From Bradyrhizobium barranii subsp. barranii (lineage in GTDB: Bacteria; Pseudomonadota; Alphaproteobacteria; Rhizobiales; Xanthobacteraceae): DNA of 64,000 bases. The notes beneath the pieces were generated by a model. That model was not told where the DNA came from and searched no databases. It was given only the letters and a program-made list of their open reading frames with translations. The stretch covers positions 9,655,501-9,719,500 of the forward strand of contig NZ_CP086136.1 of assembly GCF_017565645.3 (NCBI RefSeq). The letters run 5' to 3'. Of the stretch, positions 2,700 to 37,225 are shown one piece after another (position 1 is the first letter of the stretch; each line of letters opens with the position of its first letter). The position numbers and the translations under genes were made by a program.

Positions 2700-2894
2700 T
2701 CAAGACGCTTCGTTGAGGATGATGTGCATGACTTCGGTCAGCCGCGCCTGGTACGCGATGCCGATCACGCCAAGGCTGTCCGCGAACTGCTTGTCGTTCT
2801 TCAGCTCCATCAGGAACGCCGTGATGGCGACGCGAACCGACATGCTCTGGCCTTCGGTCAGCTTGTGCCCGTCGATGGTGATCGTCGGCTCCAT
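2700..2894 (-). CDS. Small hypothetical phage protein
   Basis: A 64-residue helical protein (starts MEPTITIDGHKLTEGQ). ATG at 2894 overlaps the upstream stop; GTG at 2897 is an alternative. The sequence alternates an N-terminal strand-rich part with two predicted amphipathic helices. No family recognised. Confidence 0.6.
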   Translation of the reverse strand: MEPTITIDGHKLTEGQSMSVRVAITAFLMELKNDKQFADSLGVIGIAYQARLTEVMHIILNEAS

Positions 2895-3106
2895 CACGAC
2901 CGCTCCTTTTCGGTGAACAGCGTGCCCTGCGGCTCTTCGGCGACTATCATCGCGCGGTAGTCGAGGGCAATCGCCTCCATCAGCTCGACTTCGCGCTTCG
3001 CCTGGGCCTCGGTCATGAAGCCGTCGGCGACGCGCCGCCGATAGACGTGCTTGCGGTAGCCGATTTCGCGGAGCACGCAGCGCAGCTTGTCGATGGTGGT
3101 GATCAT
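2894..3106 (-). CDS. Small hypothetical phage protein
   Basis: A 70-residue, strongly helical, charged protein starting MITTIDKLRCVLREIGYRKH. The region AKREVELMEAIALDYR resembles a helical hairpin seen in several rhizobial phage proteins of unknown function. It is coupled by overlapping start/stop to both neighbours in the early operon. Confidence 0.6.
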   Translation of the reverse strand: MITTIDKLRCVLREIGYRKHVYRRRVADGFMTEAQAKREVELMEAIALDYRAMIVAEEPQGTLFTEKERS

Positions 3107-3342
3107 CAGGTCCGCTCCAGCTCGCGCGCCCTGACCCAGGCCTGCGCGCTCTCCACGGAGATCAGCACCCGGCGACCGACCCGCATTTCCCTCGGGGCCT
3201 TACCCTCGTCGCGCAGGTTGAAGTAGTGCCGCTCCGAGATGCGGAAGGCGCGGCAGAATTCCGGGACCGTGTAGGCAAGCTGCGTCATGGGGACCTCCGG
3301 CTTCTTCCGTGATTTGGCCTTCGTCTTTGCAGCGGACATCAT
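3106..3342 (-). CDS. Helix-turn-helix (AlpA/excisionase-like) DNA-binding protein
   Basis: A 78-residue protein. After a basic leader (KTKAKSRKKPE), residues about 20-70 fit the small MerR/AlpA-like fold: YTVPEFCRAFRISERHYFNL, then a wing-like VGRRVLISVESAQAWVRAR. Such proteins act as excisionases or phage regulators that bind DNA as a winged helix. No integrase is in the window to pair it with, so regulator and excisionase are both possible. ATG at 3342 or 3339. Confidence 0.7.
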   Translation of the reverse strand: MMSAAKTKAKSRKKPEVPMTQLAYTVPEFCRAFRISERHYFNLRDEGKAPREMRVGRRVLISVESAQAWVRARELERT

Positions 3343-3584
3343 CAGTGCGCCCCTTTCCGACGATGCAGGTATGCGTTGATCTGCTTGATTTCGTCAGCGA
3401 CGCACCGGTCGAACAGCCCGTGCATCTCCTGCTGATGCGCGGGCGCGAAGCAGGCGACGTATTCGGCGACCAGATAGGCCAGGGCCGCGCCCTCGCTGTC
3501 GCAATCCATGTGGGCGCTGGCCGTATGGAATACGTCGATCAGCTTCGTGACGTTGTCGGCGATCTTGTCTTCATCAACCGGCAC
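3342..3584 (-). CDS. Hypothetical phage protein (GTG start)
   Basis: An 80-residue protein. The reading frame is open further upstream into the tRNA gene, but a clean ribosome binding site (GGAGG, 7 bases upstream) decides for GTG at 3584, giving MPVDEDKIADNVTKL. The protein is helical with several His and Cys residues (CFAPAHQQEMHGLFDRC). No family recognised. It lies directly downstream of the tRNA-Phe on the same strand. Confidence 0.55.
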   Translation of the reverse strand: MPVDEDKIADNVTKLIDVFHTASAHMDCDSEGAALAYLVAEYVACFAPAHQQEMHGLFDRCVADEIKQINAYLHRRKGAH

Positions 3585-3882
3585 GGCGGCACCTCCAGGA
3601 CAAACGACGACCGATGTGGAAATAGCGGCGACCGCGCTTGCCGCAGACCGGATCACGGGCGACATGGCGATTGGTGCCGGGGGATGGGTTCGAACCACCG
3701 CCGCGCGGATTTTCGATCCGCCGCTCTACCGACTGAGCTACCCCGGCGCGCGGCCCGTCCTGGTCGAAAGGGTCGCGCCCGATGCGGCGCGTCCACATTG
3801 CATCGAAGTCGTCGTCGGCGGCGAGGACCGGCGACGCCAGGGCAACCGCGAGGCACTGCAGGACGGCGCGTCGCGCGATCAT
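3574..3882 (-). CDS. Signal-peptide ORF that runs into the tRNA gene
   Basis: From ATG at 3882 (ATGA overlap with the upstream stop) the frame begins MIARRAVLQCLAVALASPVLA, a convincing export signal, then ADDDFDAMW. The remainder is translated straight through the tRNA-Phe (giving the tell-tale GVAQSVERR and GGGSNPSPG peptides) before a stop at 3574. I infer that a small periplasmic protein lost its own 3' end when the tRNA sequence was acquired, or that only the first 45 residues ever mattered. Real expression is uncertain. Confidence 0.35.
   Translation of the reverse strand: MIARRAVLQCLAVALASPVLAADDDFDAMWTRRIGRDPFDQDGPRAGVAQSVERRIENPRGGGSNPSPGTNRHVARDPVCGKRGRRYFHIGRRLSWRCRRAG
3672..3747 (-). 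tRNA. tRNA-Phe (anticodon GAA)
   Basis: The minus strand folds as a complete 76-base tRNA. The acceptor stem GCCGGGG pairs with CCCCGGC, followed by an encoded ACCA. The D arm is AGCTCAGTCGGTAGAGC. The anticodon stem GCGGA/TCCGC encloses loop TCGAAAA with anticodon GAA, and the T arm is GGTGG-TTCGAAC-CCATC. It lies inside the early operon and in the same direction, so it would be processed from the phage transcript. It is probably phage-borne and not an attachment site, because clear phage genes lie on both sides. Confidence 0.93.
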
Positions 3883-4130
3883 GCCCGAGCCCTCCGCTTG
3901 CGCTTGGTCTGGGGCGCGGGTCGTTGGCTCATATCCTCACCGCGCGACGGCGTTGTGCGAGACGCCGCCTCCGTAGCTCCACCGGACCCAAGGGCGTGGC
4001 GATCCAGCAACTTGCGAACGCGATAGGCCTCGGCGAAGTGATCGCCCGCATGGCAATGCGAGGTCTCGCTGCGGCAGTGCTCGCCGCAACAGATCGCCTG
4101 CGCAATTTCGAGGTCGCTGGGTCGCGTCAT
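3879..4130 (-). CDS. Small Cys/His-rich phage protein
   Basis: An 83-residue protein starting MTRPSDLEIAQAICCGEHC. The N-terminal 35 residues contain CC, C, H, C and H residues (ICCGEHCRSETSHCHAGDH) that could bind a metal, and the C-terminus is very basic (KRKRRARA). It lies between the coiled-coil gene and the signal-peptide ORF in the early operon. Function unknown. Confidence 0.6.
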   Translation of the reverse strand: MTRPSDLEIAQAICCGEHCRSETSHCHAGDHFAEAYRVRKLLDRHALGSGGATEAASRTTPSRGEDMSQRPAPQTKRKRRARA

Positions 4131-4805: not shown

Positions 4806-5227
4806 CAGACGGCCTTCTCGGCGAGGAACAGGCGGACCGTGACTTCGTACCGCTCGCAGGCGCGGATCACCGCGCTGTGGTCGATACCGAAGGTGCGCGC
4901 GATCTGATGATAGCTCGCGCCGGTCACGACCTTGGTGAAGGCCATGATCTTCTGGCGCGTAGCGAGTGCGTCGCGGTTAGGTTTTGTCCGGAGGTCCTGG
5001 ATCGAGGTGCCGAACGCCTGCGCGCCGACCGAGCACGCGATGGTGCAATGGTTCAGGTACGGGCGCGCCGCGCTGATCGCCTTGAAGTCGTCGCGCATCT
5101 TGCGATAGCGATGGCCCTCAGTCGCTGCGAGCGACGCAACCGATGAGGTGCCCTGGCGCTCGGGGAGAGGCGGCCAGGGCATCTGCAGGTCCACGTCGTA
5201 GATGATCAACGGGAAACAACGGTCCAT
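4805..5227 (-). CDS. DnaA domain IV-like DNA-binding protein
   Basis: A 140-residue protein from ATG at 5227 (MDRCFPLIIYDVDLQ). The C-terminal 55 residues (RQKIMAFTKVVTGASYHQIA then RTFGIDHSAVIRACERYE) reproduce the DnaA domain IV signature, including the DHSAVIRAC helix that reads the DnaA box in host DnaA. There is no AAA+ domain. Such phage proteins may mimic, compete with or redirect DnaA binding; that role is inference. It lies directly downstream of recT, one base apart. Confidence 0.7.
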   Translation of the reverse strand: MDRCFPLIIYDVDLQMPWPPLPERQGTSSVASLAATEGHRYRKMRDDFKAISAARPYLNHCTIACSVGAQAFGTSIQDLRTKPNRDALATRQKIMAFTKVVTGASYHQIARTFGIDHSAVIRACERYEVTVRLFLAEKAV

Positions 5228-25071: not shown

Positions 25072-25486
25072 CGAGCCGAAGCCCGAGATCGCGGCCAACC
25101 TGCCTGACCCGCCTCCGTTCATCACCGGTTATGCAGCCGACGAATGGTGGACGGTCGGCGCAGAGCTGCACCGGCTCGGCCTCCTGACCATCGTCGATGT
25201 CGCGCCGCTTGCCGCTTATTGCCACGCCTATGGCCAATGGCGGATGGCCGCCGAGGCGCTGGCGCGGATGCAGAACAACGATCCGTTGATGAACGGCATG
25301 ATCATCAAGACCAAGTACGGCGATGCCGCGCAGAACCCGCTGGTCTATGTCGTGCGCAAGGCAGCAGCGGACATGGTGCGCTACGCCGCCGAATTCGGCC
25401 TGACCCCGGCCGCCCGCACCCGCATCAACGCAGGCGTCCAGGGCGAGCAGTCGCAGAGCAAGTTTGCCGGACTCCTCGCCGGTTAA
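24998..25486 (+). CDS. Terminase small subunit, P27 family
   Basis: A 162-residue protein. It opens with PTQLKLLRGNPGKRPLRTDE, the LKxLxGNPGKRPL signature of P27-type small terminases, followed by a helical core (EWWTVGAELHRLGLLTIVDV) and a C-terminal FGLTPAARTRI motif. It recognises the packaging site and loads the large subunit. It overlaps the methyltransferase gene before it and the large subunit after it. Confidence 0.9.
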   Translation: MPAHTIPTQLKLLRGNPGKRPLRTDEPKPEIAANLPDPPPFITGYAADEWWTVGAELHRLGLLTIVDVAPLAAYCHAYGQWRMAAEALARMQNNDPLMNGMIIKTKYGDAAQNPLVYVVRKAAADMVRYAAEFGLTPAARTRINAGVQGEQSQSKFAGLLAG

Positions 25487-27047
25487 GCGCACGCCGCAGG
25501 GCAAGGCCCGCGCTAAGGCGGTTATCGACTTTATCGAGCGATTGACGGTGCCCAGCGGCACCGGCCAGGGGAGACCGTTCAAGCTCGACGCGTTCCAGAA
25601 GCTTTTCATCCGCGCGATTTACGAACCGCACATCGGTGCCAATCGCGCGGTGCGGCGAGCGATCCTGTCGATTGCGCGCAAGAACGGCAAGACGGCGCTC
25701 ATCGCTGCAATCGTGCTCGCGCACCTGGTCGGGCCCGAGGCTATCGTCCACGGCGAGATTTACTCGGCCGCGAATGATCGCGACCAGGCGGGCATCGTCT
25801 TCAAGTTCGCGCGCCAGATCGTGGACCTGGAGCCCGAGCTGGCAGCCGAGATCGAGGTCATTCCCTCGACGAAGACGATGATCGGCAGGCGCACCGGCTC
25901 AGTCTATCGCGCGGTCAGCGCCGAGGCTGGCACCAAGCATGGCTATCTGCCGAGCCTGGTGATTTATGACGAGCTGGCCCAGGCCAAGAACCGCGAGCTT
26001 TACGACGTGCTGGACACCTCGTTCGGCGCTCGGCAAGAGCCGCTGTTCATCATCATCAGCACGCAGAGCAACGATCCCGAGCACGTCCTATCGAAATTGA
26101 TCGACGACGGTTTGAGCGGCGTCGATCCGTCCATCGTCTGCCATCTCTACGCAGCCGACGAGGATTGCGACCTGGACGACGAGAGCCAATGGGAAAAAGC
26201 CAACCCGGCGCTCGGCAAATTTCGCGACCGCGAGGACCTGGCGACCGCGATCCGCAAGGCGCAGCGTATGCCCGCCGAGGAGCCGAAGGTCCGCAACCTG
26301 TTCCTGAACCAGCGCGTCGCGCCAGTCGCCTCGCTGATCAGCCGCGCCGAGTGGATGGCGTGCAACGACGATGCGGCCCTGCAGGACGGCGAAGAGGTTT
26401 ACCTGGCGCTCGACCTTTCCAGCGTCGTGGACTTGACCGCGCTGCTGGTCGGATCGGTCAGCGATCCCTGCCGCATCGCGCCGTACTTCTGGAAGCCGCG
26501 CGAGCACCTGAACGAGCATTCTAACCGAGACTTCGGCGCATCGAGCCGTCGCTACCAGGAATGGGCCGAGGCCGGACACCTGCTGATCAGCCCAGGCAGG
26601 ACCATCGATCCCGAGGCGATTGCGCTGTTCATTGCCGGGTTGACGCAGCGCTATCGCGTGAAGGGCCTGGCGTATGACCGCTGGCGCATCAACGACCTGC
26701 TGCGCGAGTTCGACCGCATCGGCCTGCAAGCCTACCAGGACGGCGACAAAGGCGACGGGCTGCGGCTCGTCCCCTGGGGCCAAGGCTTCAAGGACATGGG
26801 GCCAGCCATCGACGCTGTCGAGCTGGCGATCATCGAGCGCAAGCTGCTGCACCCGAACAATCCGATCCTGAACTGGAACATGGCGAATGCCGTGGCCACG
26901 ATGGACCCGGCTGGCAATCGCAAGCTCGACAAGGATAAGGCCCGGTTTCGCATCGACGGCGCGGTGGCGCTCGCCATGCTGCTCGGCCTGCGCTCGCGCG
27001 ACCGCACCACGACCAAGCCGGTCGATATTGAAGCGTTGATAGGCTAG
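25464..27047 (+). CDS. terL: Terminase large subunit
   Basis: A 527-residue protein. The ATPase has SIARKNGKTA (about residues 69-78, Walker A variant) and LVIYDELAQ (about 165-173, Walker B with catalytic Glu). The C-terminal RNase H-like nuclease begins at LALDLSSVVDLTAL, with further acidic residues in YDRWRIND and in KDKARFRIDGAVAL. It is the HK97/Terminase_1 type, cutting and translocating DNA into the prohead. It starts inside the end of the small subunit. Confidence 0.93.
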   Translation: MPDSSPVKRTPQGKARAKAVIDFIERLTVPSGTGQGRPFKLDAFQKLFIRAIYEPHIGANRAVRRAILSIARKNGKTALIAAIVLAHLVGPEAIVHGEIYSAANDRDQAGIVFKFARQIVDLEPELAAEIEVIPSTKTMIGRRTGSVYRAVSAEAGTKHGYLPSLVIYDELAQAKNRELYDVLDTSFGARQEPLFIIISTQSNDPEHVLSKLIDDGLSGVDPSIVCHLYAADEDCDLDDESQWEKANPALGKFRDREDLATAIRKAQRMPAEEPKVRNLFLNQRVAPVASLISRAEWMACNDDAALQDGEEVYLALDLSSVVDLTALLVGSVSDPCRIAPYFWKPREHLNEHSNRDFGASSRRYQEWAEAGHLLISPGRTIDPEAIALFIAGLTQRYRVKGLAYDRWRINDLLREFDRIGLQAYQDGDKGDGLRLVPWGQGFKDMGPAIDAVELAIIERKLLHPNNPILNWNMANAVATMDPAGNRKLDKDKARFRIDGAVALAMLLGLRSRDRTTTKPVDIEALIG

Positions 27048-28068: not shown

Positions 28069-29497
28069 GGGGATGTCCCGGGTTCTGTTGAATTTCTGAA
28101 GAGGTCGGCGTTGCCCACCTTGAGCCGGTAGGCTCGGGGTGCTGATTCCACAAAGGAGAGCAACGCCATGACGAGAGATATCACACCGGCTGGTTCGCCG
28201 GCGACCGGGGCTGTGGACGAAGCGTTTGCAGAAGTGCGGGCGAGCTTTGATCGGTTCTGCCTTGCGGCGGGGATCGAAGCGCTCGGCACGATGATGGAGG
28301 CGGATGTCACGGCGGCCTGCGGGCCACGCCACGGTCGCGACGCGGCACGGCGGGCGCACCGTTGGGGCCGAACGCGGGGACGGATCGGCTTCCACGGCGG
28401 CAAGATCGAGGTCGAGCGCCCGCGGGTCCGGGGCGTGGACGGCCGCGAGGTCACGATCCCGAGCTGGGAAACGGCGGCGGCGGAGGATTGGCTCGGTCGC
28501 TGGGCGATGAACCTGATGCTGATCAATGTGTCGACGCGCCGGTTCGGCCGCGCTGTCCGGCTGCCCGAAGGTGACGTGCCGGCACCGCCCGGATCGGGGA
28601 TTTCGAAGTCGGCGGCCTCGCGGAGGTTCGTAGCGCTGTCGGCGGCGCGGCTGGCCGACTTCATGGCTGCCGATCTGTCCGCGCTCGACCTTCTGGTGGT
28701 CCAAATCGACGGGCTGCATCTCGGCGACGATCTCGTGCTGGTCGCCGCGATCGGGGTTGACGGCGAAGGCAACAAGCATCCGCTGGCTCTGGTGGAAGGG
28801 GCGACCGAGAATGCCACAACGGTTCAGGCCCTGCTGGATAACCTGGTCTCGCGCGGGCTCGACCCGACGGTGCCAAGACTGTTCATTGCCGACGGCGCGA
28901 AGGCGTTGTCGAAGGCGATCCGCCGCACCTTCGGTTCGGCCGCTGCGATCCAGCGCTGCCAGATCCACAAGGCGCGCAACATCATGGAACGCCTGCCGAA
29001 AGAGCATCATGCGGCCACCCGTCGGGTGCTGCGCCAGGCCTGGGAGCTCGATGACGCCGACAAGGCCGAAAAATTGATCCGCAATCTCGCGCGTCGACTC
29101 GACCAGCAATGGCCCGGCGTAGCGGCAAGCATCCTCGAAGGCCTCGACGAAATCCTGACTGTCGTCCGATTGAAGTTGCCGAAGGAGCTTCGTCGATCAC
29201 TCGCCTGTACCAACATCGCCGAGAACATGATGGGCACCATTCGCCGCGTCACGCGCAACGTCAAACGCTGGCGGGATGCCAGTATGGCCTTGCGATGGGT
29301 CGCGGCCGGCATGATCGAGGCCAACAAGGGCTTCCGACGATTGAAGGCGTATAAGCAATTGTCGGTTCTGCGTGCGGCCCTTCAAGCTCACCACGATCGC
29401 ATGACGATCAACCCCGTTGCCAACGTCACGAGGGCCGCGTAACATTCATTCCGGCAACGTAGGCCCGACCTAGTTCAACAACGATCGGGACATCCCC
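28069..29497 (+). mobile_element. IS256-family insertion sequence
   Basis: A 1429-bp element. Its ends start GGGGATGTCCCG and match as an imperfect inverted repeat of about 26 bases (left from 28069, right ending 29497). The 8-bp target duplication CAGGAAGG flanks it at 28061-28068 and 29498-29505. One transposase gene fills it. The intact duplication and open transposase frame argue for a recent insertion. Confidence 0.95.
28168..29442 (+). CDS. IS256-family (mutator-type) transposase
   Basis: A 424-residue DDE transposase. Characteristic parts are the N-terminal EALGTMMEADVTAACG, the first Asp in LLVVQIDGLHLGDDLVLVAA, the second Asp in LFIADGAKALSKA followed by RCQIHKARNIMERLP, and the C-terminal Glu region SLACTNIAENMMGTIRRVTR. 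No frameshift is needed and the length is normal. A GGAGAGCAACGCC ribosome binding site precedes ATG. Confidence 0.93.
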   Translation: MTRDITPAGSPATGAVDEAFAEVRASFDRFCLAAGIEALGTMMEADVTAACGPRHGRDAARRAHRWGRTRGRIGFHGGKIEVERPRVRGVDGREVTIPSWETAAAEDWLGRWAMNLMLINVSTRRFGRAVRLPEGDVPAPPGSGISKSAASRRFVALSAARLADFMAADLSALDLLVVQIDGLHLGDDLVLVAAIGVDGEGNKHPLALVEGATENATTVQALLDNLVSRGLDPTVPRLFIADGAKALSKAIRRTFGSAAAIQRCQIHKARNIMERLPKEHHAATRRVLRQAWELDDADKAEKLIRNLARRLDQQWPGVAASILEGLDEILTVVRLKLPKELRRSLACTNIAENMMGTIRRVTRNVKRWRDASMALRWVAAGMIEANKGFRRLKAYKQLSVLRAALQAHHDRMTINPVANVTRAA

Positions 29498-29925: not shown

Positions 29926-30363
29926 ATGCCGCTTCTGCGATGGCGTGCGGAGCACGGTGAGGCTCCAATTGTCACGCTGGCTTGCGCGCGGACCGTCGAA
30001 CTCTCGCCAGCCGACGGCAGCGTCGGGTCGAACACCGTCTACATCAAAGGCGAAGGCACCATCGAGTCCTTCGGCAATGCCCCTCCTGGCGACATCGACC
30101 CGCAGGGAAGAAAGTGGGGCCTCGCCATCACCAAGACGGTGTTCTTCGACGCCGGGATCATCCTGAAACGGTCGGACCGCATCGCGACCTTAAGCGAGCG
30201 AGATCGCGTGATGCTGACGCCTTCGGTCGGCATCTATCGCTGCAACGGCGGCAGCAACTGGGGCGAGGTCTTTTTCGCCGCCTCCGGTGCTGCGGAAGTC
30301 TCGCGTCGCCTCGACGCAATCGATGAGCGGCTCGCCGAGATCGAACGGCAGCTCAAGAAATAA
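29926..30363 (+). CDS. Hypothetical virion-region protein
   Basis: A 145-residue protein (starts MPLLRWRAEHGEAPIVTLAC): a beta-rich domain (VYIKGEGTIESFGNAPPGDI, then GIILKRSDRIATLSERDRVM) ending in a C-terminal coiled coil (RRLDAIDERLAEIERQLKK). Lying just before the capsid genes, it may be a decoration or head-associated protein; that is positional inference. Confidence 0.6.
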   Translation: MPLLRWRAEHGEAPIVTLACARTVELSPADGSVGSNTVYIKGEGTIESFGNAPPGDIDPQGRKWGLAITKTVFFDAGIILKRSDRIATLSERDRVMLTPSVGIYRCNGGSNWGEVFFAASGAAEVSRRLDAIDERLAEIERQLKK

Positions 30364-30461: not shown

Positions 30462-31520
30462 ATGAAGCACGAGAGCCAGAGCGCGTTTCGCCGCGAACCG
30501 CGCGAGCCGGTCGTGGGCGGCAATCTGTTCACGCGCTCGCTCACGGCGAGGACGCTTGCGAGCCTGCGGCGCAGCAAGGCCGCCGATGTTGCAGCCGAGC
30601 TGTGGCCGAACGACCGCTCCCTGGAGCATTTGCTGACGCGCGCTGCATCCAACCCGGCGATGACGAGCGTCGCGGGCTGGGCCGCCGAACTGGCGCGGCG
30701 TTACGTCAGCGACGTGATCGAGGCGCTGGGGCCTGCTTCGGCTGCGGCGCAAATTCTCCGAAGGTGCCTGGTTCTCACCTTCGACGGCTACGGCAGCATC
30801 AGCGCGCCGGGATTTGTCGCCGAATACGGCAACGGCGGCTTTGTCGCGGAGGGCCAGCCGATCCCTGTGCGTCAGCTCGCGGCGACCCCCGCCGTGATGA
30901 ACCCGGACAAGCTCGCCGCCATTGCCGTGCTTACCCGCGAGATGATGGAGTCATCGAACGCCGAAGCCTGCATTTCCGACGCGCTCGTGAAAGCGGCGGG
31001 CCGCATGATGGACGAGGTGCTGTTCGACGCCAATCCCGCCGACAATACGCGGCCAGCCGGTTTGCGCCATGGCGTCGCCGCGCTTCCCGCCAGTGTCTCC
31101 GGCGACGGGTACGAAGCCTCATTTGAAGACGTTGCAGCGCTCATCAATTCGCTGGCCCCGGTCGGCGGCAACGGTCCGTACATCCTCGTCGGGGCTCCCG
31201 GTCGCGCCGTGATGTTGGGCGCGCGTTTCATCGAGCGAAGCGACGTGGATCTTTCCATTTTCGGTTCGAGCGCGGTGATCAACGACCTGCTGGCGATTGC
31301 GCCTGCGGCGCTCGTTGCCGCGATCAGCGCAGAACCCGAGATCGAGACCGTCAACGCGGCAACATTGGTGATGGATACCGTGCCTGGAGCTGCTGGCACG
31401 ATGGGGCCCGAGCGCGGGCTGTTCCAGACCGACAGCGTCGCCATCAAGGTGCGATGGCCGGTGTCGTGGGCTTTGCGCGATCCGCGCGGCTTCGCGTGGA
31501 TGACGCCCACGTGGAAGTGA
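30462..31520 (+). CDS. Second HK97-fold major capsid-like protein
   Basis: A 352-residue protein clearly paralogous to the capsid part of the next gene. Shared blocks include TRAASNPAMTSVAGWAAELA, GQPIPVRQLA, NPDKLAAIAVLTREMMESS, LFDANPADNTRPAGLRHGVA and the C-terminal GLFQTDSVAIKVRWPVSW. It has no protease domain and a short N-terminus instead of the scaffolding coiled coil. It may form part of the shell, a minor vertex form, or be a displaced duplicate. An AAGGGAGAGACCCG site precedes ATG 30462. Confidence 0.8.
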   Translation: MKHESQSAFRREPREPVVGGNLFTRSLTARTLASLRRSKAADVAAELWPNDRSLEHLLTRAASNPAMTSVAGWAAELARRYVSDVIEALGPASAAAQILRRCLVLTFDGYGSISAPGFVAEYGNGGFVAEGQPIPVRQLAATPAVMNPDKLAAIAVLTREMMESSNAEACISDALVKAAGRMMDEVLFDANPADNTRPAGLRHGVAALPASVSGDGYEASFEDVAALINSLAPVGGNGPYILVGAPGRAVMLGARFIERSDVDLSIFGSSAVINDLLAIAPAALVAAISAEPEIETVNAATLVMDTVPGAAGTMGPERGLFQTDSVAIKVRWPVSWALRDPRGFAWMTPTWK

Positions 31521-31609
31521 GCTGAGCGCGGCAGCCGAACCACTTTCCAGAAAACCAGCAAATGCAGGGTCAACCGAACATCGCATGCGATGGGACGGAG
31601 GGATTGTTT

Positions 31610-33730
31610 ATGCGCGCTAAGCAGGACGATGACCTTCAGCCTGACGATGACGAGTCCTACGACGATTTCATGGATCGTTGCATGGACGAACTCGGCGACG
31701 AGGACGCCTGTCAGCTGATCTGGGACAACGACGGCGACGAGGACCGCGCCGCGACCGGCATCAAGCACAAGACGCATGCGGGCCAGTTTACCGGCCTCGA
31801 GTTCGTGCTGTCGGACGAGACGCCCGACCGCATGGACGATGTCATTCTCAGCGACGGCTGGGACTTGAAGAACTTCAAGCGCAACCCGATTGCGCTGTTC
31901 AATCACAAGAGCGACTTCCCGATTGGCAAGTGGAGCGACCTGCGCGTCGAGAACAGGCAGCTCCGTGGCCAGCTGGAGTTGGCTCCGTTCGGCACGTCCG
32001 AGCGCATCGATGAAATCAGGAAGCTGATCGACGCGGGCATCCTGCGCGCCGTCAGCGTCGGCTTCAAACCGCTCGAAACCAAGCAGCGCGAAGGCAGCGA
32101 TTGGGGCGTGACCTTCGTTCGCAGCGAGCTGGTCGAGACTTCGCTGGTCTCAGTGCCAGCCAATCCAAACGCCTTGGCGGTCGCCAAGTCGCTGAACATC
32201 TCCCCGCAGACGATGGACCTCCTGTTCGCCAAGCACGGCAGCATGGACGCGAGGACCAGGCGTCGCGGGATCACTGGCGAGCAAGCCAATACATCTCGCA
32301 ATCGAAAGGGCAGCGCCATGTCTGGCCTGGCTCAACGTATTACCGACTTGGAGGCGCAGATCGTCGCCAAGCGGGACCTCCTCGAAGCCCATCTCGCCGA
32401 GATGGACGACAGCAACGTCAGCGACGCCGATCTGGAAACGACCGGCAAGTTCAACTTCGAAATCGCCCAGCTCGAAAAGACCCGGTCCGCCCTGGTCGAC
32501 TCCGAGAAGCTGCTGGCGAAGTCCTCGGCCGATGGCAACGGCGCAGGCCGCAGCCGCGCGCTTTCGACGACCGTCATCACGGGCGCGGATCGCGAGCGCG
32601 TCGCCGCTCCCGCGATCAGCGTCAATCGCAAGAAGGACCTCGACCTGCTCGACTACGTCGTTCGCGCAGCGACCGTGACCTACATCGCCAGGGCGTCCGG
32701 CAAGTCGATCGATGAGACGCGGCAGCGGATTTATGGCGAAGACGACGGCACCAAGGCGTTCTGCGAGATCGTCACGCGCGCAGCCTCTGCTCCTGCCATG
32801 ACCACGGTCACCGGCTGGGCGCAGGAACTGGCGCAGACGACCTATGCCGATCTGATGCCGCTCCTGATGCCGAAGGCGATCCTGACCCGGCTTGCGCCGA
32901 AAGGCCTGACGCTGAGCTTCGGGACCTCCGGGCGCATCGTCATCCCGACGCGCTCGCGCACGCCTACCCTTGCTGGCTCGTTCGTCGGCGAAGGCATGCC
33001 CATCCCCGTTCGGCAGGGAGCGTTCACCTCGCAGACGCTCACTCCGAAGAAGATGGCTGTCATCAGCACCTGGACGCGGGAAATGGGCGACCATTCCGTC
33101 CCCGCGATTGAGGGGCTGATCCGGCAGGCCATCCAGGATGACACCACCGTGGCCATCGACAGCGTGTTGATCGATGCCAACCCGGCGACCACGATCCGGC
33201 CGCCTGGTCTGCTCAACGGCGTGGCGGCGACCGCTGCGACCGCTGGCGGCGGCATCGCGGCGCTGGTCGGCGACATCACTGCGCTGATCAACACCATCTC
33301 GGTGCAGACCATGGGCAACACGCGCAACCTCGTCTGGCTTGCCAACCAGACCGACATGCTGCGCGCGTCGATGCTGACGGCGGCTAACACCGGCATCTTC
33401 CCGTTCCGCGACGAGATCAGGGCCGGGATGCTCAACAACATCCCGATCATCGACTCGGCGACTGTGCCTGCCAGGGCGCTGATCCTGGTCGACGCAGCCG
33501 ACTTCGTCGTGGTCGGCGGCGAGGCCCCGCGCATGGAGATGAGCGATCAGGCCACGCTGCACATGGAGGACACTGCTCCTGCAGAGCTGGTCGATGGTGC
33601 GGGAGCAGCGGCTGCGCCGCAGCGCTCGCTGTTCCAGACCGACTCGCTCGCGCTGCGGATGATCATGCCGCTCAACTGGGTCCAGCGTCGTGCTGGCACG
33701 GTTGCCTGGACGCAGAACGTGACTTGGTAA
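31610..33730 (+). CDS. Prohead protease-major capsid fusion
   Basis: A 706-residue protein. ATG at 31610 is chosen since GGAGG lies 8 bases upstream. Residues about 45-200 are an HK97-type prohead serine protease (NPIALFNHKSDFPIGKW with the His, GILRAVSVGFKP with the Ser). A coiled-coil scaffold follows at about 240-310, then the HK97-fold capsid (about 330-706: VGEGMPIPVRQGAFTSQTLT, ending SLFQTDSLALRMIMPLNW). The fusion lets the protease be incorporated and then cut itself off during maturation. Confidence 0.9.
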   Translation: MRAKQDDDLQPDDDESYDDFMDRCMDELGDEDACQLIWDNDGDEDRAATGIKHKTHAGQFTGLEFVLSDETPDRMDDVILSDGWDLKNFKRNPIALFNHKSDFPIGKWSDLRVENRQLRGQLELAPFGTSERIDEIRKLIDAGILRAVSVGFKPLETKQREGSDWGVTFVRSELVETSLVSVPANPNALAVAKSLNISPQTMDLLFAKHGSMDARTRRRGITGEQANTSRNRKGSAMSGLAQRITDLEAQIVAKRDLLEAHLAEMDDSNVSDADLETTGKFNFEIAQLEKTRSALVDSEKLLAKSSADGNGAGRSRALSTTVITGADRERVAAPAISVNRKKDLDLLDYVVRAATVTYIARASGKSIDETRQRIYGEDDGTKAFCEIVTRAASAPAMTTVTGWAQELAQTTYADLMPLLMPKAILTRLAPKGLTLSFGTSGRIVIPTRSRTPTLAGSFVGEGMPIPVRQGAFTSQTLTPKKMAVISTWTREMGDHSVPAIEGLIRQAIQDDTTVAIDSVLIDANPATTIRPPGLLNGVAATAATAGGGIAALVGDITALINTISVQTMGNTRNLVWLANQTDMLRASMLTAANTGIFPFRDEIRAGMLNNIPIIDSATVPARALILVDAADFVVVGGEAPRMEMSDQATLHMEDTAPAELVDGAGAAAAPQRSLFQTDSLALRMIMPLNWVQRRAGTVAWTQNVTW

Positions 33731-34473: not shown

Positions 34474-35874
34474 ATGGCGAACTGGCTTGCCCGTCTCAAC
34501 CGCCTGATTTCGAGGTCGGTCGAGGGCGGGTACCGTCCTGGTCCGTATCACCTGCCGATCACGGGCGGCTGGCTTCCTGCTGGCGTGGGCGAATATCTGA
34601 ACTGGTGGCAGATGGGTTACGACCCTATCGGGCCGTCAGCGCAGTCGCCGATGGTGGAGGCCTGCGTCTCGGCCTATGCGCAAACCGTCGCCATGTGTCC
34701 TGGCGATCACTGGCGGCTGAACAGCAAGGGCGGGCGTGACCGGGTCAAGAACTCGGCGCTCGCCCGTTTGCTGCGTCATCCTAACGACTATCAGTCGATC
34801 AGCGACTTCCTGCTGAACGCGACCCGGTCACTGTATCTCGACGGCAACTGCTATGCGTTGGCGTTGAGGAACGACCGCTACGAGATCGACGAGCTGCACC
34901 TGATGAAACCGGAGCAGTCGTTTCCTCGCATCGCCATCGGCGGCGAAATCTTCTACCAGCTGCACGGCAACGACGTGATCTCGGCGAGGCTCGGCGAGTC
35001 CACCGTGCTGGTGCCGATGCGGGACGTGCTGCATATCCGGCTGCACACGCAGAGGCAGCGTTACCCGGTCCCGTTGATCGGCGAGAGCCCCATCGTTGCT
35101 GCCTATGGCGACATCGGGATCGGCAACGCTATCGCTCGCCAGCAGGCAGCGTTCTACATGAACGAGGCGCGGCCCTCGGCGGTGCTGTCTACCGACCTGG
35201 TCCTCGACAAGGATCAGGTCCAGGCGCTGCGCGACCGCTGGAACGACCAAGCCAAGGCTTTGCACCAGGGCGGCACGCCGATCCTGACGGCGGGGCTGAA
35301 GGTGCAGCCCTGGTCGGTCGGCGGCAGGGACGCGGCGACGGCCGATATGCTCAAGCTGTCGAACGAGCACATCGCGCTTGCCTTTCGCATTCCGCTGCAA
35401 ATCCTCGGCCTCGGCGGTGCAGCCTACGGTTCGACCGAGCTGCTGATGCAAAGCTGGATCGCTTCGGGTCTGGGCTTCTGCCTCAACCACATCGAGGAAG
35501 CCTTCGGCGTGTTGTTCGCGCTGAAAGGCCAGCCCGACGAATATGTCGAGTTCGACACGGCGGCACTGCTTCGGTCGGCGATGAAGGACCGTATCGAAGC
35601 GCTGGCGCGCGGCGTCCAGGGCGGCATCTTCGCGCCCAACGAGGCTCGTCAGCAAGAGGGCCTCGACGCCGTCGCGTTCGGCGACGAGCCGCGCGTGCAG
35701 CAGCAAGTCGTTCCGTTGAGCGCAGCGGGAAAAATCCCGCCCACGCCTGCGCCGCCATCGGCACCACCGGCACCGCTCCCGCCCGAAAAAGGCAACCGCG
35801 ATGACATTCAACGGGAAGTCAGAAACCTATTTAGGCTCACCGAACACATCGGACGGCGGCGACTTACTCCTTGA
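34474..35874 (+). CDS. Portal protein, HK97 type
   Basis: A 466-residue protein. Blocks of the phage_portal family are visible: SPMVEACVSAYAQTVAMCPG, LLRHPNDYQSISDFLLNATR, LDGNCYALALRN, VLHIRLHTQRQ, IGNAIARQQAAFYMNEARPS and LAFRIPLQILGLGGAAYGST. The C-terminal 60 residues are Pro-rich. It forms the dodecameric ring through which DNA enters. Its end overlaps the collagen-like gene by 74 bases. Confidence 0.92.
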   Translation: MANWLARLNRLISRSVEGGYRPGPYHLPITGGWLPAGVGEYLNWWQMGYDPIGPSAQSPMVEACVSAYAQTVAMCPGDHWRLNSKGGRDRVKNSALARLLRHPNDYQSISDFLLNATRSLYLDGNCYALALRNDRYEIDELHLMKPEQSFPRIAIGGEIFYQLHGNDVISARLGESTVLVPMRDVLHIRLHTQRQRYPVPLIGESPIVAAYGDIGIGNAIARQQAAFYMNEARPSAVLSTDLVLDKDQVQALRDRWNDQAKALHQGGTPILTAGLKVQPWSVGGRDAATADMLKLSNEHIALAFRIPLQILGLGGAAYGSTELLMQSWIASGLGFCLNHIEEAFGVLFALKGQPDEYVEFDTAALLRSAMKDRIEALARGVQGGIFAPNEARQQEGLDAVAFGDEPRVQQQVVPLSAAGKIPPTPAPPSAPPAPLPPEKGNRDDIQREVRNLFRLTEHIGRRRLTP

Positions 35875-37225
35875 CGCCTGGCGCGAGGCCCTGGCCGAAG
35901 TACTGGCCACCCAGCAGCGGCATTGGCAGCGCGAGCGCGCTCTGATCGAGGCCCAGGCCGCAGCGACCGTTTCAGATCTCAGGGTCCACGTCACCGAGCT
36001 GAAAACTCAGATCGCAACGCTGCACGGTGAGTTCGCCGAGCAGATCAACGCGCGCCTGGCCGAGCTGCGGAACGGCGCGGATGGCGCACCTGGCGAGCCG
36101 GGTCCTCCGGGTCCGCAAGGCCAGCCTGGGGAGCGCGGCGATCCCGGCGAGCGCGGGCCCCAGGGCGAACGCGGACTTGACGGTGCGCCTGGCGAGCGGG
36201 GCGCGAGCGGCGAGCCTGGGCCGCGCGGGGAGCCCGGTGAAAAGGGCGAGCGCGGGGCCCAGGGCGAACGCGGGCTTGACGGTGCGCCCGGCGAGCGGGG
36301 CGCGAGCGGCGAGCCTGGGCCGCGCGGCGAGCCCGGAGAAAAGGGCGAGCGCGGGGCCCAGGGCGAACGCGGACTTGATGGTGCGCCTGGCGAGCGGGGC
36401 GCGAGCGGCGAGCCGGGCCCGCGCGGCGAGCCCGGTGAAAAGGGCGAGCGCGGGGCCCAGGGCGAACGCGGACTTGATGCTGCGCCTGGCGAACGCGGCG
36501 TGCCTGGCGAGCCGGGCCCGCGCGGCGAGCCCGGAGAAAAGGGCGAACGCGGCGAGCGCGGCGAAAGTGGCGCGCAAGGCGAGAAAGGCGATCCGGGCGA
36601 AAAGGGCCAGCCTGGCGGCGAAGGGCCGCAGGGCCAACCCGGTTCGCGCGGCGAGCAAGGCGAGCGCGGTCCGCAGGGCGAGCCCGGTCAAGACGGCAAG
36701 GACGGCGCGCCGGGGCAGTTGAAGGCCGCGAGCCCATTCGCCGAGGGCTCCGTCAACTACGAGGGCGATATCGTCACGCACCACGGCTCGACCTATCAGG
36801 CCCGGTGCGACACGGCGCGCCCGCCGCCGCATGGCGACTGGGCCTGCGTCGCGGCTGCTGGGCGCAACGCCAGCATGCCGTTGGTCTGCGGCACCTATCG
36901 CGAAGGCGAAGCGTACAAGTTCTTGAACATCGTCGCGCTCAACGGCTCCGCGTTCGCCGCGCGCTGCGACGATCCGGGGCCCTGCCCAGGCGACGGCTGG
37001 CAGTTGATCGCGTCGGCGGGGCGCGCGGGCAAGCCGGGGCCGAAAGGCGAGCGCGGCGAGCCGGGACCGCGCGGACTGCCCGGAGCGAATGCTGCGGCCA
37101 TCGTCCGTTGGGAAGTCAACCGCGCGGCCTACACCATCACGCCGATCATGGCGGACGGCAGCCAGGCCCCGTCGATCAACGTCCGCGAGCTGTTCGAGCA
37201 GTATCACGAGGAAAGCGATGGCTGA
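35801..37225 (+). CDS. Collagen-like virion protein with carbohydrate-binding modules
   Basis: A 474-residue protein. An N-terminal helical region (about residues 20-85) leads into about 220 residues of uninterrupted Gly-X-Y triplets (GEPGPPGPQGQPGERG style), then two short modules of the chitin-binding type 3 style (YEGDIVTHHGSTYQARCDTA; YREGEAYKFLNIVALNGSAF), a second short collagen run and a C-terminal tail. It resembles phage head fibres that trimerise through collagen. Encoded between portal and connector genes and thus likely head- or neck-attached. It starts inside the portal gene. Confidence 0.75.
   Translation: MTFNGKSETYLGSPNTSDGGDLLLDAWREALAEVLATQQRHWQRERALIEAQAAATVSDLRVHVTELKTQIATLHGEFAEQINARLAELRNGADGAPGEPGPPGPQGQPGERGDPGERGPQGERGLDGAPGERGASGEPGPRGEPGEKGERGAQGERGLDGAPGERGASGEPGPRGEPGEKGERGAQGERGLDGAPGERGASGEPGPRGEPGEKGERGAQGERGLDAAPGERGVPGEPGPRGEPGEKGERGERGESGAQGEKGDPGEKGQPGGEGPQGQPGSRGEQGERGPQGEPGQDGKDGAPGQLKAASPFAEGSVNYEGDIVTHHGSTYQARCDTARPPPHGDWACVAAAGRNASMPLVCGTYREGEAYKFLNIVALNGSAFAARCDDPGPCPGDGWQLIASAGRAGKPGPKGERGEPGPRGLPGANAAAIVRWEVNRAAYTITPIMADGSQAPSINVRELFEQYHEESDG
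36173..36568 (+). repeat. 99-bp tandem repeats in the collagen segment
   Basis: Four tandem 99-bp units, each 33 codons starting GLDGAPGERGASGEPGPRGE and ending GERGAQGER. The first three are nearly identical at DNA level (36173, 36272 and 36371 onwards), while the fourth is diverged. The unit keeps the Gly-X-Y phase, so its number could vary by slippage and change fibre length. Confidence 0.75.

Follow-up and report, generated by a model that had tools for sequence, protein, structure and literature searches.

The window, a stretch of 64,000 nt from Bradyrhizobium barranii subsp. barranii (contig NZ_CP086136.1, positions 9,655,501–9,719,500), contains a prophage with a contractile-tail sheath, in whose head gene cluster two capsid-like genes, here termed A and B, lie in tandem. 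Gene A (30462–31520, + strand) is an intact frame of 352 aa encoding a lone capsid paralogue of predicted HK97 fold, with no protease and no scaffold; a GGGAGA resembling a ribosome site is found a few bases 5′ of its ATG. Gene B (31562–33730, + strand) encodes, in an open frame of 722 aa, a fusion of S78 prohead protease, scaffold and major capsid protein of HK97 type. The ATG at 31610 is preceded by a GGAGG, which favours a 706-aa form over the start at 31562, and 706 residues is also the length given for the fusion in an earlier note on this DNA. The frame of B starts 41 bases from the end of A, and A is bordered on its left by g145 (29926–30363, + strand). In related phages the slot that follows g145 is variable: some have A there, some a different lone capsid gene or other genes, and some nothing.

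The two proteins are clearly homologous. BLASTP aligns A with the capsid half of B at 112 of 326 identities (34 %, E=7e-38), and a family-versus-family hhalign comparison places residues 16–352 of A on residues 359–722 of B (probability 100, E=2.7e-60); the corresponding part of B lies at 32636–33727 (+ strand). The alignment contains the blocks TRAAS..PAMT.V.GWA.EL, IPVRQ, DANPA..TRP.GL..GVA and LFQTDS, which the earlier note had quoted in support of two tandem paralogues. Pfam domains in B are the S78 protease (PF04586, residues 108–207, 31883–32182, + strand) and Phage_capsid. A coiled-coil, putatively scaffold-like stretch at 32318–32536 (+ strand, approximately residues 253–325) was identified by inspection of the translation and by its position between the Pfam domains. 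In A approximately 58 residues precede the capsid core and, from residue 16 on, align to the post-scaffold arm of B. Judged from sequence, A is the capsid part of B plus an N-terminal arm, minus protease and scaffold, and the assignment of both of these to the fusion alone holds as first described. Within the whole 11.4-Mb genome, matches to A at E≤0.001 occur at two places only, A itself and B.

A Pfam scan assigns no family to A at E≤0.001, while PHROG 617 (major head protein) matches it at 4.3e-18 and several close relatives (e.g. P0002) carry a precomputed PF05065. A profile search against the sequences of solved structures gives weak matches only, the best being the Bxb1 capsid (E 0.0022). 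Structure prediction, which the earlier note had proposed as a check, yields an HK97 fold and not another one, and on this modelling A is an HK97-fold capsid protein.

Relatives of A are numerous, with at least 452 among 7,998 scored candidates in a protein search. Scanning viral contigs with A returned 60 loci, 48 of which (L001–L048) have an A-type gene and 12 of which were reached via B-type genes; a scan with B returned 49 loci, partly the same. A second, divergent A-like gene (A2) adjoins A in L003 (3949–4953; copy L048), L038 (4927–6297) and L085 (2121–3176), and L098 has A2 only (2782–3885), within 2.8 kb of upstream DNA, together with B. L003 and L085 carry three capsid genes (A, A2 and B); in L038, B lies past the locus end. 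The earlier note had suggested a search for phages with the same pair, and the pairing proves constant: B is downstream in all 44 loci that have A or A2 plus a downstream g92 or portal match (37 after removal of seven copies, L005, L047, L048, L076, L106, L115 and L120), at spacings from overlapping frames up to 6.3 kb. Where both the terminase large subunit (TerL) and B are present, A lies between them in 26 of 28 loci (21 of 23 without copies), the exceptions being L055 and L122. Where B has at least 5 kb of upstream DNA and no TerL match, A or A2 is found in 11 of 14 (exceptions L108, L121 and L123). Three prophages of genome G507 also each have the A and B pair.

The view of the earlier note that most HK97-type phages have one capsid gene at this place agrees with several relatives. 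The phages PAJU2 and RHph_X2_26 have a single fused protease-capsid or B-kind capsid gene directly after TerL and no A, and the Bradyrhizobium prophages L221–L227 have a B-type capsid without A. L226 is the same contig as L121, B directly follows g145 in L223 and L225, and neither TerL nor g145 is seen in L227. Among the matches listed in a scan of genome contigs with A (at least 5 loci), B. stylosanthis BR 446 has the same pair (its A is 94 % alike), B. elkanii (L121) has B but lacks A, two Sphingomonas loci each carry just one capsid gene, which is fused, and one Rhizobium locus carries a single capsid gene. Of 50,697 phage records in INPHARED, 15 match A at 25.5–28.1 % identity, and in the 14 that are annotated the match falls on a gene named protease, capsid or both; at the sensitivity used, no close A was found among these cultured phage records.

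Many related phages carry 1–6 kb of extra DNA between A and B that is absent in the window (L004 4663–6433; L105 1585–7488; L201 10499–11668; L080 6135–7929). Pfam scans of the genes in this interval give a weak sub-cut-off GT9 match, methyltransferases (PF13578, PF05711) and large unknowns, and these genes possibly serve modification of heads or cargo. Between A2 and B in L098, the gene at 4961–6340 matches the ATLF domain family below the Pfam cut-off (E 8.8e-4), and its protein contains a DEPRDESGRWTEGGG-like motif common to other proteins of that slot.

A quick tree of B capsid parts comprises 81 rows, 18 of them with A status not known. Over the 63 scored rows (44 with A, including near-copies, and 19 without), presence of A maps as one change, and no row without A falls inside the with-A clade (Shimodaira–Hasegawa-like approximate likelihood ratio support, SH-aLRT, 99). 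The rows without A include L226 and L121, which are one contig, L190, which has another lone capsid and not A, and L064 and L071, which have little upstream DNA and were scored by genome search with A (best 7 candidates). A therefore looks to have been gained once, with loss not seen. The ratio of nonsynonymous to synonymous substitution (dN/dS, NG86) between the window and B. stylosanthis is 0.089 for A, 0.161 for B, 0.077 for TerL and 0.140 for the portal gene, and over 10 pairs the ratio for A ranges from 0.03 to 0.25; these values are rough, because frames other than those of the window were taken stop to stop. At the level of sequence comparison, purifying selection is acting on A.

Lone capsid genes related to A also occur elsewhere in the genus. 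Genome searches with two of them find matches in 23 of the 391 genomes of the family and in 37 of the 265 of the genus, counts that include prophages with A and B and prophages with B only. In all, 35 loci were retrieved. The tree includes 27 lone capsids, of which that of L190 belongs to a phage head cluster and the other 26 do not. Of these 26 loci, phmmer finds an integrase in 22, a coiled-coil gene directly downstream of the capsid gene in 17, a gene resembling the terminase small subunit (TerS) in 10 and an AAA-type primase in 8; the queries were genes of six of the islands, which contribute 5, 6, 3 and 4 of these counts, respectively. L211–L213 match none of the four marker genes in that phmmer set, yet an AAA_25 domain is found near the L212 capsid. 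In several islands, integrase, AAA_25 and Terminase_4 are confirmed by a Pfam or PHROGs match; the TerS-like gene of L127 has no Pfam match and the coiled-coil genes match no family above cut-off. Across 24 genomes, a search with portal PF04860 and TerL PF03354, the two families used, gave no match on the same contig as any of the 26, or none within 7 Mb on it, some contigs being just 11–12 kb long. L202 has a weak TerL match (122 aa, 34 bits); X_TerL_PA lies outside the phage-marker list of the 26-locus count. L127 and L128 are islands of approximately 10 kb each between genes read as host genes. On their gene content, most of the lone-capsid kin of A in Bradyrhizobium appear to reside in satellite-like islands. 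An AAA/OLD-like ATPase gene adjoins the lone capsid gene in L128 (9830–11878), and comparable frames occur close to the lone capsid genes of L197, L207 and L208; such genes are possible defence cargo.

Trees of the capsid parts bear on whether A arose from B. For the row sets used before islands were added, 8 duplicate loci were omitted, 4 short capsid rows were lost and 19 redundant or partial rows were then dropped; the no-island set has 75 chosen rows, and its approximately unbiased (AU) test used 5 fewer (long branches and one other outgroup). The island tree has 80 chosen rows (LG+C20, posterior mean site frequency model), with a 330–520 aa filter that excluded the short lone capsids L207 and L209. 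In this tree, a split supported at 100/99 has 23 A rows with 24 lone capsids on one side and 30 B-type rows with the other 3 lone capsids on the opposite side. A, A2 and the islands L200 and L203 group at 100/98; a grouping of A with A2 to the exclusion of L200 and L203 is not rejected (p 0.155). Holding A with the B sequences that accompany it (BwithA) is rejected at p-AU 0.0004, and still at 0.0034 when the 24 lone capsids are let in. Without island sequences duplication within the clade is not rejected (p=0.213), so the conclusion against duplication leans on the islands. With the islands in the tree, A appears to be a member of a distinct lineage of capsid proteins that stand alone and lack a protease, and it probably did not originate as a copy of B within this phage clade. 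The displaced duplicate, one of three origins or roles offered in the earlier note, is set aside, as is a recent duplicate, by co-retention, dN/dS and the AU tests that include the islands.

L190 extends this comparison. This prophage has TerL, portal, g145 and fused B genes, and the space from g145 to B holds a lone capsid gene (347 aa) that precedes B by 16 bases. Its lone capsid is on another branch, and union with A is rejected (p 1.3e-6); phages therefore hold lone capsids of two branches in the same slot. For A itself, one lone capsid gene would have been gained once at the base of the phage clade and then kept, with transfer that may have run from island to phage or in the reverse direction.

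The lone capsids also differ from B in length at one site. In the second half of the capsid domain, the interval between two anchors is 11–23 residues in 50 of 50 lone capsids (A, island and L190), versus 26–34 residues in 30 of 30 B-type capsids, whether fused to or beside a protease gene. The shortened block of A is located at 31215–31268 (+ strand, approximately residues 252–269; 16–23 residues across 23 A rows) and its long counterpart in B at 33362–33454 (+ strand, approximately residues 601–631), the latter being long in all 30 protease-linked capsids compared. The stretch missing from lone capsids includes FPF...G.L..IP as read in B. Judged by its position in the chain, the missing block would belong to the A-domain, close to the capsomer axis. 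In phage T4, some mutations that bypass gp24 are reported in the A domain of gp23, at an interface within the capsomer (PMC9958956).

These observations raise the possibility, held about as firmly as it is doubted, that A assembles together with B as a second subunit of the shell and occupies a single class of capsomer, probably that of the pentamers. A lacks protease and scaffold and starts approximately where the scaffold of B ends; therefore, alone it probably builds no head and uses the scaffold of B in trans. Co-assembly as a second HK97-fold shell subunit is the first choice because A has no scaffold of its own, a fixed partner and the missing block. A would then fill one capsomer class, probably pentamers, and B the hexamers, and A at the pentamers would thereby set or stabilise head curvature. 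Thus the second shell component or vertex variant of the earlier note fits best, given a pair fixed in its clade, purifying selection and the missing block.

Several points weigh against this reading. Relatives with a B-type capsid gene but no A (PAJU2, RHph_X2_26 and L221–L227) imply that A is dispensable for such a head as such. The structure model of B is moderately confident only (pLDDT, predicted local distance difference test, 72.8). The separate lineage of A depends on the island rows as noted above, and the AU-test groups were named after a tree had been seen. The island capsids L204, L206 and L210 have the short block but group with B in the tree, which may reflect repeated loss of the block or misplacement of these rows. 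Finally, the satellite protein Ccm, the nearest precedent, has a cleaved N-terminal delta domain and A has none.

Ccm of the satellite SaPIbov5 is reported to fill pentamers while the helper protein fills hexamers, to form no capsids by itself and to derive, as is thought, from a phage capsid gene (PMC8569155). Like Ccm with respect to the phi12 capsid protein (CP), A is a homologue of its partner capsid, with an HK97 fold (predicted for A), no protease and a similar length (Ccm 355 aa; PMC8569155). Ccm works only with its partner capsid protein (PMC8569155), a dependence that would apply to A by analogy. The two differ in that Ccm is satellite-encoded, whereas A is in the phage's own head cluster, in the 87-residue delta domain that is removed in Ccm (PMC8569155), and in identity to the partner, which is 34 % for A to B and 23 % for Ccm to CP (PMC6893505). 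The satellites PmCI172 and EcCICFT073, which are phage-inducible chromosomal islands, each have one capsid homologue, as the Bradyrhizobium islands appear to have (PMC6092414, PMC6893505); these are in different hosts with the gene in the satellite, and the accounts given of them mention no phage that carries this gene next to the one for its own capsid.

The reading under which A acts as a size or shape switch, so that the phage would normally make heads of B alone and, under some conditions, heads of a different size that contain A, is unlikely but the likeliest of the alternatives. Ccm, in filling pentamers, is reported to turn helper heads from prolate to isometric (PMC8569155), and the nearest kin of A are in small islands (approximately 10 kb in two examined) that would profit from small heads. 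However, A lies in a phage head cluster and is never seen missing in its clade, which better suits a constant part. Rather improbable is an immunity or anti-satellite role, in which A would be a capsid decoy that poisons head formation by superinfecting phages or prevails in competition with the capsid proteins of satellites. B-only phages and lone-capsid islands do share hosts (genome G404 has both an A-less B prophage and a lone-capsid island), and capsid homologues such as Ccm can reportedly block phage production (PMC8569155, PMC6893505), but the late head-cluster position, co-retention with B and low dN/dS of A suit a virion part, and more frequent loss and regain would be expected of a decoy.

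Improbable too is an old, fast-diverged duplicate of B within this clade, with the grouping of A and the islands due to long-branch attraction or to later spread to islands. The no-island test leaves room for it, but it is rejected once islands are included, also when spread to islands is allowed, and the L190 lone capsid lies on another branch. Very improbable is a non-functional relic or the remnant of a satellite embedded in phage late genes: such embedding is reported (PMC10111431), but A is under purifying selection, and eight island genes (from L127 and L128) searched by phmmer in L001–L124 were found only in L065, L066 and L070, themselves island loci.

Phages known to build an HK97 lattice from two paralogous proteins form a small set. 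The classic case is T4, in which gp23 and gp24 are, like A and B, two HK97-fold capsid paralogues in one phage (PMC9958956). T4 gp24 is probably a duplicate of gp23, is cleaved and forms 11 vertices (PMC9958956), whereas A groups with island-borne capsids; B, unlike its T4 counterpart, is a protease-scaffold-capsid fusion. The ‘two major capsid proteins’ mentioned in PMC11445458 and PMC10635136 are, as those texts put it, two copies of one protein and not a parallel.

Second HK97 capsid proteins and satellite capsid homologues are both already known; what appears new is a phage with a satellite-type one beside its fused capsid gene. Searches of the open-licence PubMed Central literature, and of the 50,697 phage records at the sensitivity used, revealed neither a phage clade with this arrangement nor a second phage with another lone capsid, as L190 has. 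The favoured reading, co-assembly of A with B, suggests that some phages build two-component heads using a capsid protein of the kind with which satellites hijack heads. A broader and more doubtful proposal is that phages repeatedly took up satellite capsid-hijacking proteins as fixed head parts, or satellites took them out; a lone lineage without the same block would shuttle between both, would have entered phages at least twice at one slot upstream of the capsid gene, and would make one-protein heads two-component. One protein lineage spans phages and satellite-like islands, and the A-less sister phage group offers a natural control. Two questions thereby become testable: how an HK97 lattice places different proteins in hexamers and in pentamers, and whether satellite tools can be domesticated by phages.

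Other features of the window lie around this pair. TerL (25464–27047, + strand) and the portal protein (34474–35874, + strand), both assigned by Pfam, flank it in the packaging and head region. A Mutator-type (PF00872) transposase gene is found at 28168–29442 between HNH genes of the packaging region, and the annotation used shows no match to it in the closely related B. stylosanthis prophage L120. A tRNA-Phe at 3672–3747 is the sole tRNA of the window and may serve as an attachment site. The frame at 35801–37225 overlaps the portal gene at its end and encodes a collagen-like Gly-X-Y protein with a 99-base unit repeated 4.1 times at 93 %; it has matches at the same place in many related contigs, some of which are perhaps low-complexity matches.
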